A stretch of DNA of 19,108 nucleotides from Candidatus Omnitrophota bacterium (lineage in GTDB: Bacteria > Omnitrophota > JACPQZ01), in NCBI GenBank assembly GCA_016190205.1, contig JACPQZ010000026.1, forward strand, positions 1 to 19,108. The letters are read 5' to 3'. This document shows, piece after piece, positions 65 to 16,432 of the stretch; the first letter of the stretch is position 1, and every line of letters starts with the position of its first letter. A program made the translations under genes and the position numbers. The notes beneath the pieces were generated by a model. That model was given only the letters and a program-made list of their open reading frames with translations, did no database searches and was not told the origin of the DNA.

Positions 65-1240
65 TTGTCTTCCGGTAGGGTCTATTTGGATTACAATGCC
101 ACCGCTCCTCCTGACCCGGAGGTTATAGCCCGGATCCGCCCCTATATGGAAGCGGATTTCGGCAATCCCTCCAGCCTTCACCGGGAAGGACAGCGGGCCC
201 GGGCGGCCATAAACGGGGCGCGGGCGGGGCTGGCCCGAATTTTACACTGTCAGGAAAACGAGATCCTCTTTACGTCGGGGGCGACCGAGGCCTTAAATCA
301 TGTGTTTTTGGGATTTCTGCAGCAGCCTGCCGGGCACCTCATCACCACTCAAATCGAGCACCTGGCGGTGCTCGAGCCCTGCCGTTTTCTCGAGAAGTCG
401 GGTTGGTCGGTCACTTATCTTCCCGTAGACGGAGATGGGCTTGTAAGCCCTGCGGCGGTCAGGCAGGCGGTACGGCCTGATACGCGGCTCATCTCCTGCA
501 TGCACGCGAACAATGAGACAGGCACGGTCCAGCCCGTCCGGGAGATCGGCGAGATCGCGCGCGCGGCCGGTATTCCCTTCCTGACCGATGCCGTCCAATC
601 CTTCGGGAAGATCTCCGTGGACCTCGCCGCCTGGAACGCGTCCTTCGCGGTCTTTTCGGCGCACAAGATAGGGGGCCTCAAGGGGACGGGGCTTTTGTAC
701 GTCCGACGGGACAGGGATCTTACCTCTTTAATTCGAGGTGGTCATCAGGAGCGGGGAGGGCGCGGCGGCACGGAAAACGTGGCAGGCATCGTGGCCATGG
801 CGGAGGCCGCGCGGCTCGCTGAAGCGCGTCGCGCGGGCGAGGCCGCGCGGCTTAAGACCCTCCGTGACACGCTGGAGGCCGGAATCCTGAAGCAGCTCAC
901 GGGAGCGCGCGTCACCGCGGGGGGTGCGGAACGGCTTCCGAACACCCTGCACGTGGTGTGGGAGCACTTAGATTCGGAGAAGCTCCTCATGGGTTTTGAC
1001 CTGGCGGGGATCGCGATTTCAAACGGATCCGCCTGCGATTCGGGCTCGGTGGAGCCCTCACACGTGGTCGCGGCGCTGGGCCTGCCGGATTCCTACAGGA
1101 AGGGGGCCGTACGGTTTTCGCTGGGGCGCGGGACGACCGCGGAAGAGATCGACCGGGCCTTGACGGAAACCATTCGGATCGTCCGTCATCTTCAAAAGGA
1201 GCGGGTTCATGCCGGCCCCGTCAAGCATGCCGGGAATTGA
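65..1240 (+). CDS. Cysteine desulfurase (NifS/IscS family)
   Basis: PLP enzyme that takes sulfur from L-cysteine as a persulfide, releasing alanine, for Fe-S cluster assembly or tRNA thiolation. Visible residues: LDYNATAP near the N-terminus, the SGATEALN phosphate-binding stretch (71-78), H99, NNETG (149-153), D175 with Q178, and the PLP lysine K201 in SAHKIGGLKGTG. The catalytic cysteine is C324 in GSACDSGSVEPSHV, the long-loop style of group I (IscS/NifS) rather than SufS. The length of 391 residues is normal. The start is TTG, preceded by AGGAT. The last residues (AGPVKHAGN and stop) are encoded by a repeated palindromic element shared with the next gene. No IscU, IscR or thiI/mnmA partner is in the window, so the sulfur acceptor is unknown and I give no symbol. 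Confidence 0.95.
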   Translation: MSSGRVYLDYNATAPPDPEVIARIRPYMEADFGNPSSLHREGQRARAAINGARAGLARILHCQENEILFTSGATEALNHVFLGFLQQPAGHLITTQIEHLAVLEPCRFLEKSGWSVTYLPVDGDGLVSPAAVRQAVRPDTRLISCMHANNETGTVQPVREIGEIARAAGIPFLTDAVQSFGKISVDLAAWNASFAVFSAHKIGGLKGTGLLYVRRDRDLTSLIRGGHQERGGRGGTENVAGIVAMAEAARLAEARRAGEAARLKTLRDTLEAGILKQLTGARVTAGGAERLPNTLHVVWEHLDSEKLLMGFDLAGIAISNGSACDSGSVEPSHVVAALGLPDSYRKGAVRFSLGRGTTAEEIDRALTETIRIVRHLQKERVHAGPVKHAGN

Positions 1241-2027
1241 GACGGGGCTCGTCGACACCCATGCCCACATGTTTTTTCAGGACTTCGATCGCGACCGGGA
1301 TGAGGTGTTTCAGCGCGCCCGTGCGAGCGGAGTCGAGCGCTTTGTGCTCGTAGGGACAGACGCGGCCACCAGCCGCGAAGCTGTGGCCCTTGCCCGCTCT
1401 CGGGAAGACTGCGTGGCCACCGTCGGGTTTCATCCCCATTACGCGGACCGTTTTAGTGAAAAGGATTTTGATGAGCTTAAAGGGCTGGCGGCGGAGGCGA
1501 AGGTGGTTGCGGTAGGCGAGGTCGGGCTCGACTATTTTAAGGGTTTCTCGAACCGTGAAAATCAAAGGCTGGTCTTAACGGCGATGCTGGGGCTCGCAAG
1601 GGACCAGGGGCTCCCTGTCGTCTTCCACTGCCGGGATGCGCATGAGGGTCTTATTTCCATGGTCTGTGATCCGGAATGGAGGGAGGTCCGGGCCGTCGTC
1701 CACTGTTTTACGGGGAGCGAGGCCGAGGCCGCGCAGTATCTTGAAAGGGGATTTTTTATCTCCTTTGCGGGTCAAATCACGTTTAAGAATGCGCGCGCCT
1801 TGGTGGAGGTTGCCCGCAAGGTCCCTTTGGACCGGATATTTATTGAGACGGATTGCCCGTATCTCGCGCCCGATCCTCATCGGGGGACGCGCAATGAACC
1901 GGCCCGGTGCGTCTTGATCGCCCGCCGCCAGGCGGAGCTTCATGGCGTGACGGAGGAAGAAGCCGCCCGTATCACGACGGCCAATGCTGGGCGGTTCTTC
2001 GGCCCCGCACTGGGGATCGTCCCGTGA
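1209..2027 (+). CDS. tatD: TatD-family metal-dependent DNase
   Basis: TIM-barrel metallohydrolase of the TatD/YcfH family, known for 3'-5' DNase activity and linked to DNA repair and RNA quality control. Metal ligands are visible: HxH in LVDTHAH (H18, H20), the Glu of VGEVGLDY, His in VFHCRDA, His in VHCFTGS, and Asp in ETDCPYLAP. ATG 1209 has a strong AAGGAG a few bases upstream, so translation starts 32 bases inside the cysteine desulfurase gene. Typical TatD proteins begin almost directly at LVDTHxH. Here the first ~13 residues (PAPSSMPGIETGL) come from a palindromic repeat also present in the next gene. The gene ends in a GTGA overlap with the CPBP protease. Confidence 0.95.
   Translation: MPAPSSMPGIETGLVDTHAHMFFQDFDRDRDEVFQRARASGVERFVLVGTDAATSREAVALARSREDCVATVGFHPHYADRFSEKDFDELKGLAAEAKVVAVGEVGLDYFKGFSNRENQRLVLTAMLGLARDQGLPVVFHCRDAHEGLISMVCDPEWREVRAVVHCFTGSEAEAAQYLERGFFISFAGQITFKNARALVEVARKVPLDRIFIETDCPYLAPDPHRGTRNEPARCVLIARRQAELHGVTEEEAARITTANAGRFFGPALGIVP
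1215..1249 (+). repeat. 35-bp palindromic coding element, copy 1
   Basis: Begins GCCCCGTCAAGCATGCC and ends GAGACGGGGCT. Its ends pair as a perfect GCCCCGTC/GACGGGGC stem around a ~19-base interior. It matches copy 2 at 2579-2613 at 33 of 35 positions. It lies across the cysteine desulfurase/tatD overlap: it carries the desulfurase TGA stop and encodes APSSMPGIETGL at the TatD N-terminus. Shared DNA in non-homologous genes shows this is a dispersed element, not conserved protein sequence. Confidence 0.85.
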
Positions 2028-3133
2028 ATATCATCAGGCAGCCCATGCTCTATTTTCTCTTACTCGGGCTCATCGCCCTCTTTGCAGCGGCGAGCTTCAT
2101 CGGACAGGACAGGGCCGCGCTGGATGAGATGGCCCACGAGAACACCGAGATCGTCTCGAATTTTGAAAAGCAGATCGAGGCGCGGTTCAAGGAGGGCTTA
2201 AAGGATGCGGACTCGGCCCGCGAGCTTCTGAAGTCAGACCCGGCCTTTGCGCTCCTGTTTGTCATTACGGCGGGGGTCGTGCTCGTGGCCATGCCCCTGG
2301 GGGGTCTCGTTTTGCTCGTGTACCTTTTCGTGCGGGCGCAGGGAAAGGAGTGGATTGGCCGCGTGCATGATCCCCCTCCCTGCGATTGGCGGGTTTCGGA
2401 TATAGGCCGGGTTGCCGTACTGTTCGTCTTTGTGGCTTATTGCGTGAGCATGGCAATCGGCCTCCTCGCGGGGGCGGGGTACATCTCGGAGGATGAACTG
2501 GCGCGCGAGTACCCGGTGGCAAGCACCCTCGCGCTCGATCTCTGGGCCGCGTTCCTGGTGCTGGTCTTTGCGAGGCTTGCCCCGTCAAGCACGCCGGGAA
2601 TTGAGGCGGGGCTTAACCGTGAGGGAAGCCCCATGCCGGCCCTGGGACTCGTGCGCAAGGGTTGGGCCCGCTCGCTTGCGTGGGGCGGGGTGGGCTACCT
2701 GTGTATCCTGCCGGTGTTCGCGTTATCTGTGAGCATCGTTATGGGAGTCGCCAAGCTCATTCAGTATGAACCCCCCACGCATCCCCTGGTCACCGTGTTT
2801 GTGGCAGAGGAATCTCCCATAACGCATGCCTTCTCCCTCATCCTGGGGCTGGGGGTGGGCCCGGTGGTGGAGGAGCTTTTTTTCCGGGGATTCTGCTATG
2901 CGGCGCTCAAGGCGTCCTATGGGGTGGGCCGCGCCATTGTCGTGAGCAGTCTATTGTTCAGCGTGCTCCACTGGAATCCTTTTAGCGCGCTTCCCATCTT
3001 CTGCCTCGGCGTGGCGCTGGCCTACCTTTATGAAAAGACAGGCACGCTGACGGCCTCCATCGCGATGCACGCGATCCATAACGGTCTTTTGATCCTGGGG
3101 CTTTTACTCATGAAAAGGCTCGTCGGTGCATAA
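2024..3133 (+). CDS. CPBP-family (CAAX/Abi) intramembrane metalloprotease
   Basis: Polytopic membrane protein of about 369 residues with the three CPBP motifs: EELFFR (E283, E284, R288), FSVLH (H316), and HAIHN (H349, N353). Family members include eukaryotic Rce1 and bacterial bacteriocin-immunity or maturation proteases; the substrate here is unknown. An N-terminal membrane segment (about 9-27) precedes a charged, probably soluble stretch (30-72), then about seven hydrophobic segments. I chose GTG 2024, which overlaps the tatD stop as GTGA. The frame is open further upstream, but that would lie within tatD. Residues 186-197 (APSSTPGIEAGL), in a loop between membrane segments, are encoded by copy 2 of the palindromic element. 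The stop overlaps the M50 protease start as TAATG. Confidence 0.88.
   Translation: MNIIRQPMLYFLLLGLIALFAAASFIGQDRAALDEMAHENTEIVSNFEKQIEARFKEGLKDADSARELLKSDPAFALLFVITAGVVLVAMPLGGLVLLVYLFVRAQGKEWIGRVHDPPPCDWRVSDIGRVAVLFVFVAYCVSMAIGLLAGAGYISEDELAREYPVASTLALDLWAAFLVLVFARLAPSSTPGIEAGLNREGSPMPALGLVRKGWARSLAWGGVGYLCILPVFALSVSIVMGVAKLIQYEPPTHPLVTVFVAEESPITHAFSLILGLGVGPVVEELFFRGFCYAALKASYGVGRAIVVSSLLFSVLHWNPFSALPIFCLGVALAYLYEKTGTLTASIAMHAIHNGLLILGLLLMKRLVGA
2579..2613 (+). repeat. 35-bp palindromic coding element, copy 2
   Basis: Second copy of the element at 1215-1249, with only two base differences. The ends pair as GCCCCGTC/GGCGGGGC with one G-T wobble, so the hairpin is kept. It is in the same reading frame as in tatD and adds about 12 residues to a cytoplasmic or periplasmic loop of the CPBP protease without breaking the frame. 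Confidence 0.85.
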
Positions 3134-3747: not shown

Positions 3748-3749
3748 CC

Positions 3750-3837
3750 ATGGGGTCAGGTCTTGCATTATCACATTTGATGAAGCGCCGGTCGCGGAGA
3801 AGTCGTAGCCGTGTTATATTGCAAGACCTGACCCCAT
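3750..3837. mobile_element. MITE-like foldback element with 18-bp perfect terminal inverted repeats
   Basis: The left end ATGGGGTCAGGTCTTGCA (3750-3767) is repeated exactly in inverse at 3820-3837. The match continues inward imperfectly (TTATCACA against ATATAACA), giving about 24 of 26 paired positions. The interior is about 50 bases with no gene of its own. From memory, ends containing GGTCAGGTCTTGCA occur near IS200/TnpA-REP (Y1) transposases in many genomes, so this is probably a non-autonomous element moved in trans. No transposase is in the window. It occupies the mtnA start, and its first three bases serve as a candidate ATG. Confidence 0.82.
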
Positions 3838-4985
3838 GTACCGTTGATTGGGTTAAGGGGCACGTGGTATTGATTGATCAAACACAGCTCCCGGCCAGGC
3901 TTGTTACACTGCGGTTGGTGAGTGTGGATATGGTGCGCGAGGCGATTCGCTCTCTGCGCGTGCGCGGGGCGCCGGCTATTGGGGTGGCGGCGGCCCTGGG
4001 GGTGCTTCTTGTTTTGAACGGCCGGCGCAGGGATTCGACCACCGCACTTGTGCGCCGAGTCCGGCAGGCCGCAAGCAGGCTTGAGAGCGCCCGTCCCACC
4101 GCGGTCAACCTCGCCTGGGCCTTAAGAAGGATGGTCTCCTGCGCCGAAAAAAGCAAGGAGCTGGCCCCGGCCATTTTTCGAAAATCCCTGGAGCGCGAGG
4201 CGCTTTTGATCCGCGATGAAGACCGCAGGCTTTGCCGCGAGATTTCCCGCCACGGAGCGGGGCTTTTAAGGAGTGGGGATTCTGTTCTTACGCATTGTAA
4301 CGCAGGGGCGCTGGCCACCGCCGGAATGGGCACGGCCCTCGGAGTCGTTTATGAGGCCGCGCGGTCGGGGAAGAAATTGAGCGTTTACGTGGGCGAGACG
4401 CGGCCTCTCCTTCAAGGAGCAAGGCTTTCTGCGTGGGAACTCATGCGCAGGAAAATAGGGGTCACGCTTATCACGGACAGCATGGTCGCGAGCGTCATGC
4501 GGCAGGGAAGGGTGGACAAGGTCGTGGTCGGCGCGGACCGCATCGCGGCGAACGGAGACACCGCCAATAAAATCGGGACCTATTCGATCGCCTGCCTCGC
4601 CCGGCTTCACAAGATTCCTTTTTATGTGGCCGCGCCGAGCTCGACTTTTGACTTTTCGATTCCCGACGGCCGGCATATCCCTATAGAAGAACGGGCCCCG
4701 CAGGAGATCACAGCCCCCTTCGGCCGCCCCACGGCCCCCAAAGGCGTGAAGGTTTTTAACCCGGCCTTCGATGTGACACCTGCGGGACTTATCACAGCCA
4801 TCATTACCGAGCGCGGTATCGCCCGCCCTCCTTTCAAGACAAGTCTAAGACATTTGTTGGGAAGGAGGAGGGATGAGAGAGGAGGGACGAAGGGCGTGGG
4901 AAGTGGGACGTTGGACGTGGGACGTCGGACGAACGAAGTGCGACGCACGAGGCACGAGGCACGAAGCACGAACGTGCTGCCATGA
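3750..4985 (+). CDS. mtnA: Methylthioribose-1-phosphate isomerase (eIF2B-like), possibly 5-deoxyribose-1-phosphate isomerase
   Basis: Converts 5-methylthioribose-1-phosphate, and in some bacteria 5-deoxyribose-1-phosphate, to the ribulose-1-phosphate form. Diagnostic stretches: LIDQTQLP, VRGAPAIGVAAALG, the catalytic Cys in THCNAGALATAG (C183), GETRPLLQGARL, and the catalytic Asp in GADRIAANGDTANKIGTY (D263). At 411 residues it is long for a family of about 345. The first ~29 residues are encoded by a MITE-like foldback and residues ~371-408 by a heptamer repeat array; the conserved core is roughly 31-360. The start is uncertain: ATG 3750 has a weak AGGG upstream, and ATG 3780 and TTG 3819 are also in frame. 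The end overlaps the next gene as ATGA, which points to co-expression with the aldolase-dehydrogenase. Confidence 0.9.
   Translation: MGSGLALSHLMKRRSRRSRSRVILQDLTPCTVDWVKGHVVLIDQTQLPARLVTLRLVSVDMVREAIRSLRVRGAPAIGVAAALGVLLVLNGRRRDSTTALVRRVRQAASRLESARPTAVNLAWALRRMVSCAEKSKELAPAIFRKSLEREALLIRDEDRRLCREISRHGAGLLRSGDSVLTHCNAGALATAGMGTALGVVYEAARSGKKLSVYVGETRPLLQGARLSAWELMRRKIGVTLITDSMVASVMRQGRVDKVVVGADRIAANGDTANKIGTYSIACLARLHKIPFYVAAPSSTFDFSIPDGRHIPIEERAPQEITAPFGRPTAPKGVKVFNPAFDVTPAGLITAIITERGIARPPFKTSLRHLLGRRRDERGGTKGVGSGTLDVGRRTNEVRRTRHEARSTNVLP
4862..4973 (+). repeat. Degenerate heptanucleotide tandem array (family 1), 16 units
   Basis: Sixteen consecutive 7-base units stay in phase. Early units are AAGGAGG, AGGGATG and AGGGACG. 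The middle ones are TGGGACG, TTGGACG, TGGGACG and TCGGACG. The last are CACGAGG twice, CACGAAG and CACGAAC. The consensus drifts from NGGGANG to CACGARG along the array. It encodes the Arg/Gly/Thr-rich tail of MtnA. It resembles the short tandemly repeated repetitive (STRR) heptamers known in cyanobacteria, although here it lies in a gene. Confidence 0.85.
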
Positions 4986-7070: not shown

Positions 7071-7355
7071 TCATTTCCTTGACCGAACTTCTGCGGTGAT
7101 TTTTTCATAGATGGTTTTGCGAGAACCAATGCCGATGACCACGACTGTAATAGTGGTGCGCTCGATCCGATATACGATTCGAAAACGCCTCGCACGGAAA
7201 GAATGGAAACCGGCGAGTTCATCCCTCAATGACTTGCCGATCCAGGGATCCTTTCGAATCTCGTCCAATGCTGCGCGGATGTAGCGCTTAATTTCCGGCG
7301 GGTAACTTCGTAAGGCAGTTTCAACTTCGGGCGTGACAACGAGGCGCCACTTCAC
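7071..7355 (-). CDS. RelE/ParE-family toxin
   Basis: Small basic protein of 94 residues with the RelE/ParE fold pattern: WRLVVTPEVETAL, LRSYPPEIKRYIRAALDEI, LAGFHSFRARRFRIVYRI, and a last strand VVVIGIGSRKTIYEKI. RelE members cut mRNA on the ribosome, while ParE members poison gyrase; sequence alone does not decide, though a YefM/Phd partner favours RelE/YoeB type. The GTG start overlaps the antitoxin stop as GTGA, so the pair is coupled with the antitoxin first. It converges on the aldolase-dehydrogenase gene with only 28 bases between the stops. Confidence 0.9.
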   Translation of the reverse strand: MKWRLVVTPEVETALRSYPPEIKRYIRAALDEIRKDPWIGKSLRDELAGFHSFRARRFRIVYRIERTTITVVVIGIGSRKTIYEKITAEVRSRK

Positions 7356-7627
7356 GCAAGACCCCAGCGCACCTTCTCCAGCGAGATCCCCTTGCCGCCG
7401 CGACGCAGATAGCGAAGAGAGGCTCGGATTTGAGCCATGAGCTTGGGGTCCTTTTTAATAGCGAGGGTCTCCGCAATGGACTGCCATTCTTCGTAAGAGA
7501 CTAACACCGCGGCAGGTTTACCTTTCGCAGTAATGATCACCTCGTCCCCCAGGCGATTGACCCGGCGCACGGCCTCTAAGGCGTGCGTCCGGAATTCAGT
7601 CACCGGTACCACGTTCGATATTTTCAT
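7352..7627 (-). CDS. Phd/YefM-family antitoxin
   Basis: Ninety-one residues. The N-terminal half matches Phd/YefM DNA-binding antitoxins: VVPVTEFRTHALEAVRRVN, then IITAKGKPAAVLVSYEEWQSI. The C-terminal half (from about 60) is basic and would wrap and neutralise the RelE-like toxin encoded immediately downstream. The ATG is preceded by AGGGGTG. A good sigma-70-type promoter with a palindrome over its -10 box lies directly upstream, which fits the autorepression known for this family. Confidence 0.9.
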   Translation of the reverse strand: MKISNVVPVTEFRTHALEAVRRVNRLGDEVIITAKGKPAAVLVSYEEWQSIAETLAIKKDPKLMAQIRASLRYLRRGGKGISLEKVRWGLA

Positions 7628-16202: not shown

Positions 16203-16208
16203 ACGGTT

Positions 16209-16432
16209 CGTACAGCGTACTGCGTTGTGCGTACAGCGCAATGTCGGGGTGAGCAAAGATTCGTACAGCGTACAGCGTCGTGCGTACAGCGAACGAAAAC
16301 CCATGCTCAACTTTCACGCAGTACGCTGTACGCAGTACGCAGTACGAGCAAATGAGCCGAATTGCTGTAAACCTGGTGACTAGGCTATGACGCAGTACGC
16401 GGTACGCTGTGCGCTGTACGCAGTACGATGCG
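16209..16432. repeat. Heptamer repeat cluster (family 2) in four blocks, two forward and two inverted
   Basis: The ~240-base ilvC-leuA gap is mostly 7-base units. Block A (16209-16243) and block B (16262-16296) are built from CGTACAG with variants CGTACTG, CGTTGTG and CGTCGTG. Block C (16317-16351) and block D (16391-16432) are built from CGCAGTA and CGCTGTA. These are the reverse complement (rotated) of the A/B unit, so the left and right halves can pair. Single-copy spacers of about 18, 20 and 39 bases separate the blocks. The unit differs from the mtnA array. No promoter stands out. Confidence 0.85.

Follow-up and report, generated by a model that had tools for sequence, protein, structure and literature searches.

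A 35-bp repeat with complementary ends encodes a near-identical peptide in two unrelated neighbouring proteins and may have arisen by local duplication

The DNA analysed here, hereafter the window, is the whole of contig C18 (19,108 bp) of a 1.65-Mb genome estimated to be 92.8% complete. Its first three genes lie on the plus strand and encode a cysteine desulfurase (NifS-like, Aminotran_5; 65–1240), a TatD-family DNase (PF01026; 1209–2027) and a CPBP/Rce1-like membrane protease (PF02517; 2024–3133), the last assigned by its Pfam match and by orthologue comparison. An AAGGAG motif (1196–1201, plus strand), likely the ribosome-binding site of tatD as judged from its sequence, lies 7 nt before the ATG at 1209. 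Two 35-nt plus-strand segments, one covering codons 3–14 of tatD (copy 1, 1215–1249) and one in the protease gene (copy 2, 2579–2613), were found to be identical at 33 of 35 bases, and direct comparison thus bore out the repeat pair that an earlier note on this DNA had reported. The match has an E value of 7.7e-9 within the window and of 3e-7 within a 0.79-Mb sample of the same genome, and the longest exact run common to both copies is only 13 nt, so that an assembly artefact via shared k-mers is unlikely.

Both copies are read in the same frame, giving APSSMPGIETGL as TatD residues 3–14 and APSSTPGIEAGL as protease residues 186–197, and since PF01026 and PF02517 are unrelated families, the claim of a near-identical peptide in two unrelated proteins holds as well. 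The two base differences between the copies each change an amino acid, and this 2/35 divergence indicates that the copying event is not fresh. Copy 1 has a further coding role that was absent from the earlier note: in a frame other than that of tatD it also encodes the final residues of NifS and the TGA stop (1238–1240), and because the 65–1240 ORF terminates at this TGA, a single segment forms both the NifS end and the TatD start.

The ends of the repeat are complementary. In copy 1, the left arm GCCCCGTC (1215–1222) and the right arm GACGGGGC (1241–1248) form a perfect 8-bp pairing; in copy 2, the left arm GCCCCGTC (2579–2586) and the right arm GGCGGGGC (2605–2612) form seven Watson–Crick pairs and one G.U pair. 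Among random 36-mers drawn from the same genome, only 2.7e-4 began and ended with complementary 8-bp stretches, and GC content therefore does not trivially explain the hairpin-like ends. The RNA hairpins predicted for each copy with its flanks were, however, no stabler than those of shuffled sequences (z = −0.64 and 0.08).

At the protease site, an alignment of 29 same-phylum orthologues revealed that 28 lack 13–14 residues exactly where the repeat lies, while in the remaining one (L029) the loop is partly extended yet does not reach the length of that in the window protease; the orthologues do not encode the peptide. Concordantly, once 12–14 residues were cut at this position, an orthologue-only HMM scored the protein at 298–302 rather than 286 bits, a gain of 12–16 bits. 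By this sequence comparison, the protease repeat is a genuine insertion. In an AlphaFold2 model of the protease (mean pLDDT 86.9), residues 186–197 form a coil between the helices 156–185 and 203–207 and make up the lowest-confidence block (pLDDT about 52), and the insertion is thus placed by the model in a loop between helices. A 5-bp direct repeat, GGCTT, brackets the insertion on the plus strand (2574–2578 and 2610–2614); too short to be significant by itself, it could be either a target duplication or a microhomology.

The tatD copy is harder to read. The canonical TatD start is MLVDTHAH, whereas here 12 additional residues, downstream of the well-positioned AAGGAG, separate M from LVDTHAH, and most relatives show M with 0–2 residues followed by (L/V/I)DTH. 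In addition, the repeat ends exactly at the start of the TatD domain, the Pfam match beginning at residue 15, just after the repeat-encoded residues. These alignments suggest that the tatD repeat is probably a 12-residue insertion after the start codon, and this is less certain than the protease insertion because TatD N-termini are variable in some relatives (L008 and L023) and the upstream neighbour differs from that of the relatives compared. In the window this neighbour is nifS, whereas L010, L012, L020 and L023, the four relatives read, have metG there, assigned as a methionyl-tRNA synthetase end from a KMSKS-type motif; the 5′ junction of tatD has thus undergone rearrangement in one of the two lineages, and copy 1 could stem from this junction and have acted as a source. 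The change in gene order is located exactly at the 5′ end of tatD. No direct repeat beyond one base flanks the tatD copy. The in-frame insertion that the earlier note had assumed at both genes is hence supported by a clean orthologue gap and an HMM gain at the protease, and at tatD is no more than probable.

The earlier note had likened the pair to mobile palindromic elements and reasoned that other copies in this genome would define a new family of coding repeats. No third copy was found in the own genome by patterns that allowed up to 3 mismatches or were degenerate, by half-element patterns or by a covariance model; the repeat with up to 3 mismatches was likewise found neither in 144 nor in 383 other genomes, all labelled as the same phylum only and nothing nearer, and the exact pattern was found neither in GTDB contigs nor in viral contigs. 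Beyond the two copies, the 12-nt left end gave only one-mismatch matches at the rate of the control pattern, and no transposon ends sharing the arm were recognised. Searching with the hairpin arms alone, at up to 2 mismatches, yielded 25 matches, of which the candidates inspected were ordinary coding sequence with loops unlike the element, resembling by inspection parts of ProB, GlmU, an aminotransferase, LarC and a subtilase; the best of them (C67) had p = 0.02 among 11 tested. A peptide scan of the 0.79-Mb sample gave as next best only chance-like matches of 7/12 residues, one resembling a PyrK motif, and the remaining same-frame pairs in long genes from a self-BLAST of the sample look like homology (ATPase motifs) or within-protein repeats. 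Because about 18 kb in seven small contigs of the sample were masked and genome completeness stands at 93%, a missed copy is possible, but a sizeable family is unlikely. The two known copies have the same orientation and lie 1,364 bp apart, and the probability that two random insertions fall that close is 1.7e-3, or 8e-4 with the strand also matching. The proposed mobile family thus gained no support from these searches, with two copies only, close together, and none in the 383 genomes.

Taken together, we consider a one-off local short duplication, possibly hairpin-assisted and tolerated since it was in frame and in a loop, to be the best reading, with a probability of about 0.58. A single local event is favoured by the closeness of the copies in one orientation, and the inverted-repeat ends favour the involvement of a hairpin, either through a template switch or through a hairpin-ended unit hopping locally. 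Under such a duplication, one copying event within the gene cluster would have put a second copy of a hairpin-ended segment of 33–36 bp at a distance of 1.36 kb, most likely by a replication template switch or short-patch repair, and the 8-bp inverted repeat may have aided the event by letting a single strand fold and misprime. The receiving gene would have remained open, the length being a multiple of three and the used frame having no stop, and the added 12–13 residues would have fallen in the interhelix loop of the protease and been tolerated there. The likelier direction would be from the nifS–tatD junction to the protease gene, the junction being a plausible source because the 5′ neighbourhood of tatD is rearranged, and the repeat would have no sequence-specific function of its own. 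Mechanism, direction and neutrality are what we infer here. Several findings count against a local duplication: the tatD copy is also insertion-like, and two insertions of one unit would be expected of a mobile element; a segment copied at random would not be expected to end in an 8-bp inverted repeat; and, with the copies diverged at 2/35 positions, no intermediate or empty-site strain is at hand among genomes that are all of the same phylum only.

The leading alternative is a low-copy mobile palindromic element, namely a unit resembling a very small MITE or RPE that a transposase acting in trans inserted independently into tatD and the protease gene. It would account for the apparent 12-residue additions at both sites, for inverted repeats placed precisely at the unit ends against a chance of 2.7e-4, and for the direct repeat GGCTT that brackets the protease copy, and the genome does encode four Y1/REP-type transposases; nothing, however, ties these four to the 35-bp repeat. 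Against this reading, no third copy was found in the own genome or in the 383 other same-phylum genomes searched, no transposon ends with a matching arm were recognised, single-mismatch matches occurred only at the control rate, the tatD site has no target duplication beyond one base, and both copies lie within 1.4 kb (P about 1e-3), and independent insertion thus appears unlikely. The narrower idea of a minimal palindromic mobile unit (33–36 bp) that spreads in frame into coding sequence and is sampled at very low copy here, in a lineage without sequenced close relatives, is decidedly unlikely; if it were true, sister genomes would show more copies.

Another possibility is that the segment is native to tatD, as a variable N-terminus or as nifS–tatD junction sequence, and that only the protease copy was inserted. 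The variable TatD N-termini of L008 and L023 and the exchange of nifS for metG as upstream neighbour speak for this, but most relatives have no more than M and 0–2 residues before DTH and the end of the repeat coincides with the start of the TatD domain, which makes a native origin quite improbable; it is compatible with the local-duplication account and would mainly fix its direction. Selection might have kept the repeat at both sites as a functional motif in RNA or protein, such as one for translational coupling at nifS–tatD or a shared peptide signal; in favour of this, the nifS stop falls within the hairpin loop, and tatD starts shortly before the hairpin. Such selection is highly improbable given that the hairpins are no stabler than shuffles, the protease orthologues lack the peptide, and the searches found neither a further copy in the genome nor, in the 0.79-Mb sample, another peptide that closely matches. 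As both base differences alter the residue and the orthologues are without the peptide, nothing suggests that the peptide is conserved or selected.

Compared with known systems, the repeat resembles in effect the Rickettsia (RPE) and Wolbachia (WPE) palindromic elements as well as REPs lying in ORFs (PMC2229807, PMC10969869, PMC4224334, PMC3733652). RPE measure 105–146 bp (PMC2229807) or about 150 bp, with ten families and 44 insertions in R. conorii (PMC10969869). Like RPE and WPE, the repeat has complementary ends, lies in frame in unrelated genes, keeps an open frame and is apparently tolerated; unlike them, it measures 33–36 bp and occurs as two copies in one gene cluster with no family. 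REPs, GTAG- or CGTC-tagged, are palindromic, 20–40 bp long, often near gene ends and occasionally inside genes (PMC3733652), and the repeat matches those in ORFs in its size, its palindromic form and its position within genes, whereas REPs are high-copy, mostly extragenic and tagged, and the two copies here are both coding and without a tag outside the stem. Of the features of an RPE-like family, in-frame insertion was found, while dispersed copies and presence at other loci in same-phylum genomes were not, and because of these two absences and its size the repeat, by this comparison, should not be filed as RPE, WPE or REP. For comparison with a MITE the observations are mixed: the ends carry an 8-bp inverted repeat and the 5-bp GGCTT repeat at the protease may be a target duplication, but nothing beyond one base is repeated at tatD. 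Short non-tandem local duplications formed by template switching or micro-homology resemble it in having two nearby short copies in one orientation and no family, but they do not require the 8-bp inverted-repeat ends seen here. The locus offers a clear small example of how a short hairpin-ended segment can extend two unrelated proteins by the same dozen residues and rewrite the C-terminus of NifS as well, without closing any of the three reading frames. Its significance would be greater were there a family of such minimal coding repeats, against which the searches argue.

The self-BLAST of the sample further revealed that this genome has many short repeats of REP-like, MITE-like or simple heptamer type. 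REP-like repeats of the form CGTCATTGCGAGCCCCGC.GAGCGGGGCGAAGCAATCTC are dispersed (L103:9135–9183, L084:13719–13767 and L137:11469–11513), and some overlap long ORFs. Within the window, an inverted repeat, TGGGGTCAGGTCTTGCA...TGCAAGACCTGACCCCA, at 3749–3838 has close copies in contigs L107, L108 and L125 and overlaps the called start of an mtnA-like ORF (3750–4985), in a genome that has four Y1 transposases. Heptamer-like repeats (GGGACGTTGGACGTGGGACG, CACGAGGCACGAGGCACGAAG) at 4900–4980 are read as the C-terminal tail of the same ORF, and this tail is probably not real coding sequence. A cluster of short direct and inverted repeats, CGTACAGCGTAC / GTACGCTGTACGCAGTACGC, at 16207–16430 surrounds the gap between the ilvC-like and leuA-like genes, and many similar arrays occur across the genome. 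On the minus strand, two small overlapping ORFs (7071–7627) have by eye the look of a RelE/ParE-type toxin and a Phd/RelB-type antitoxin.
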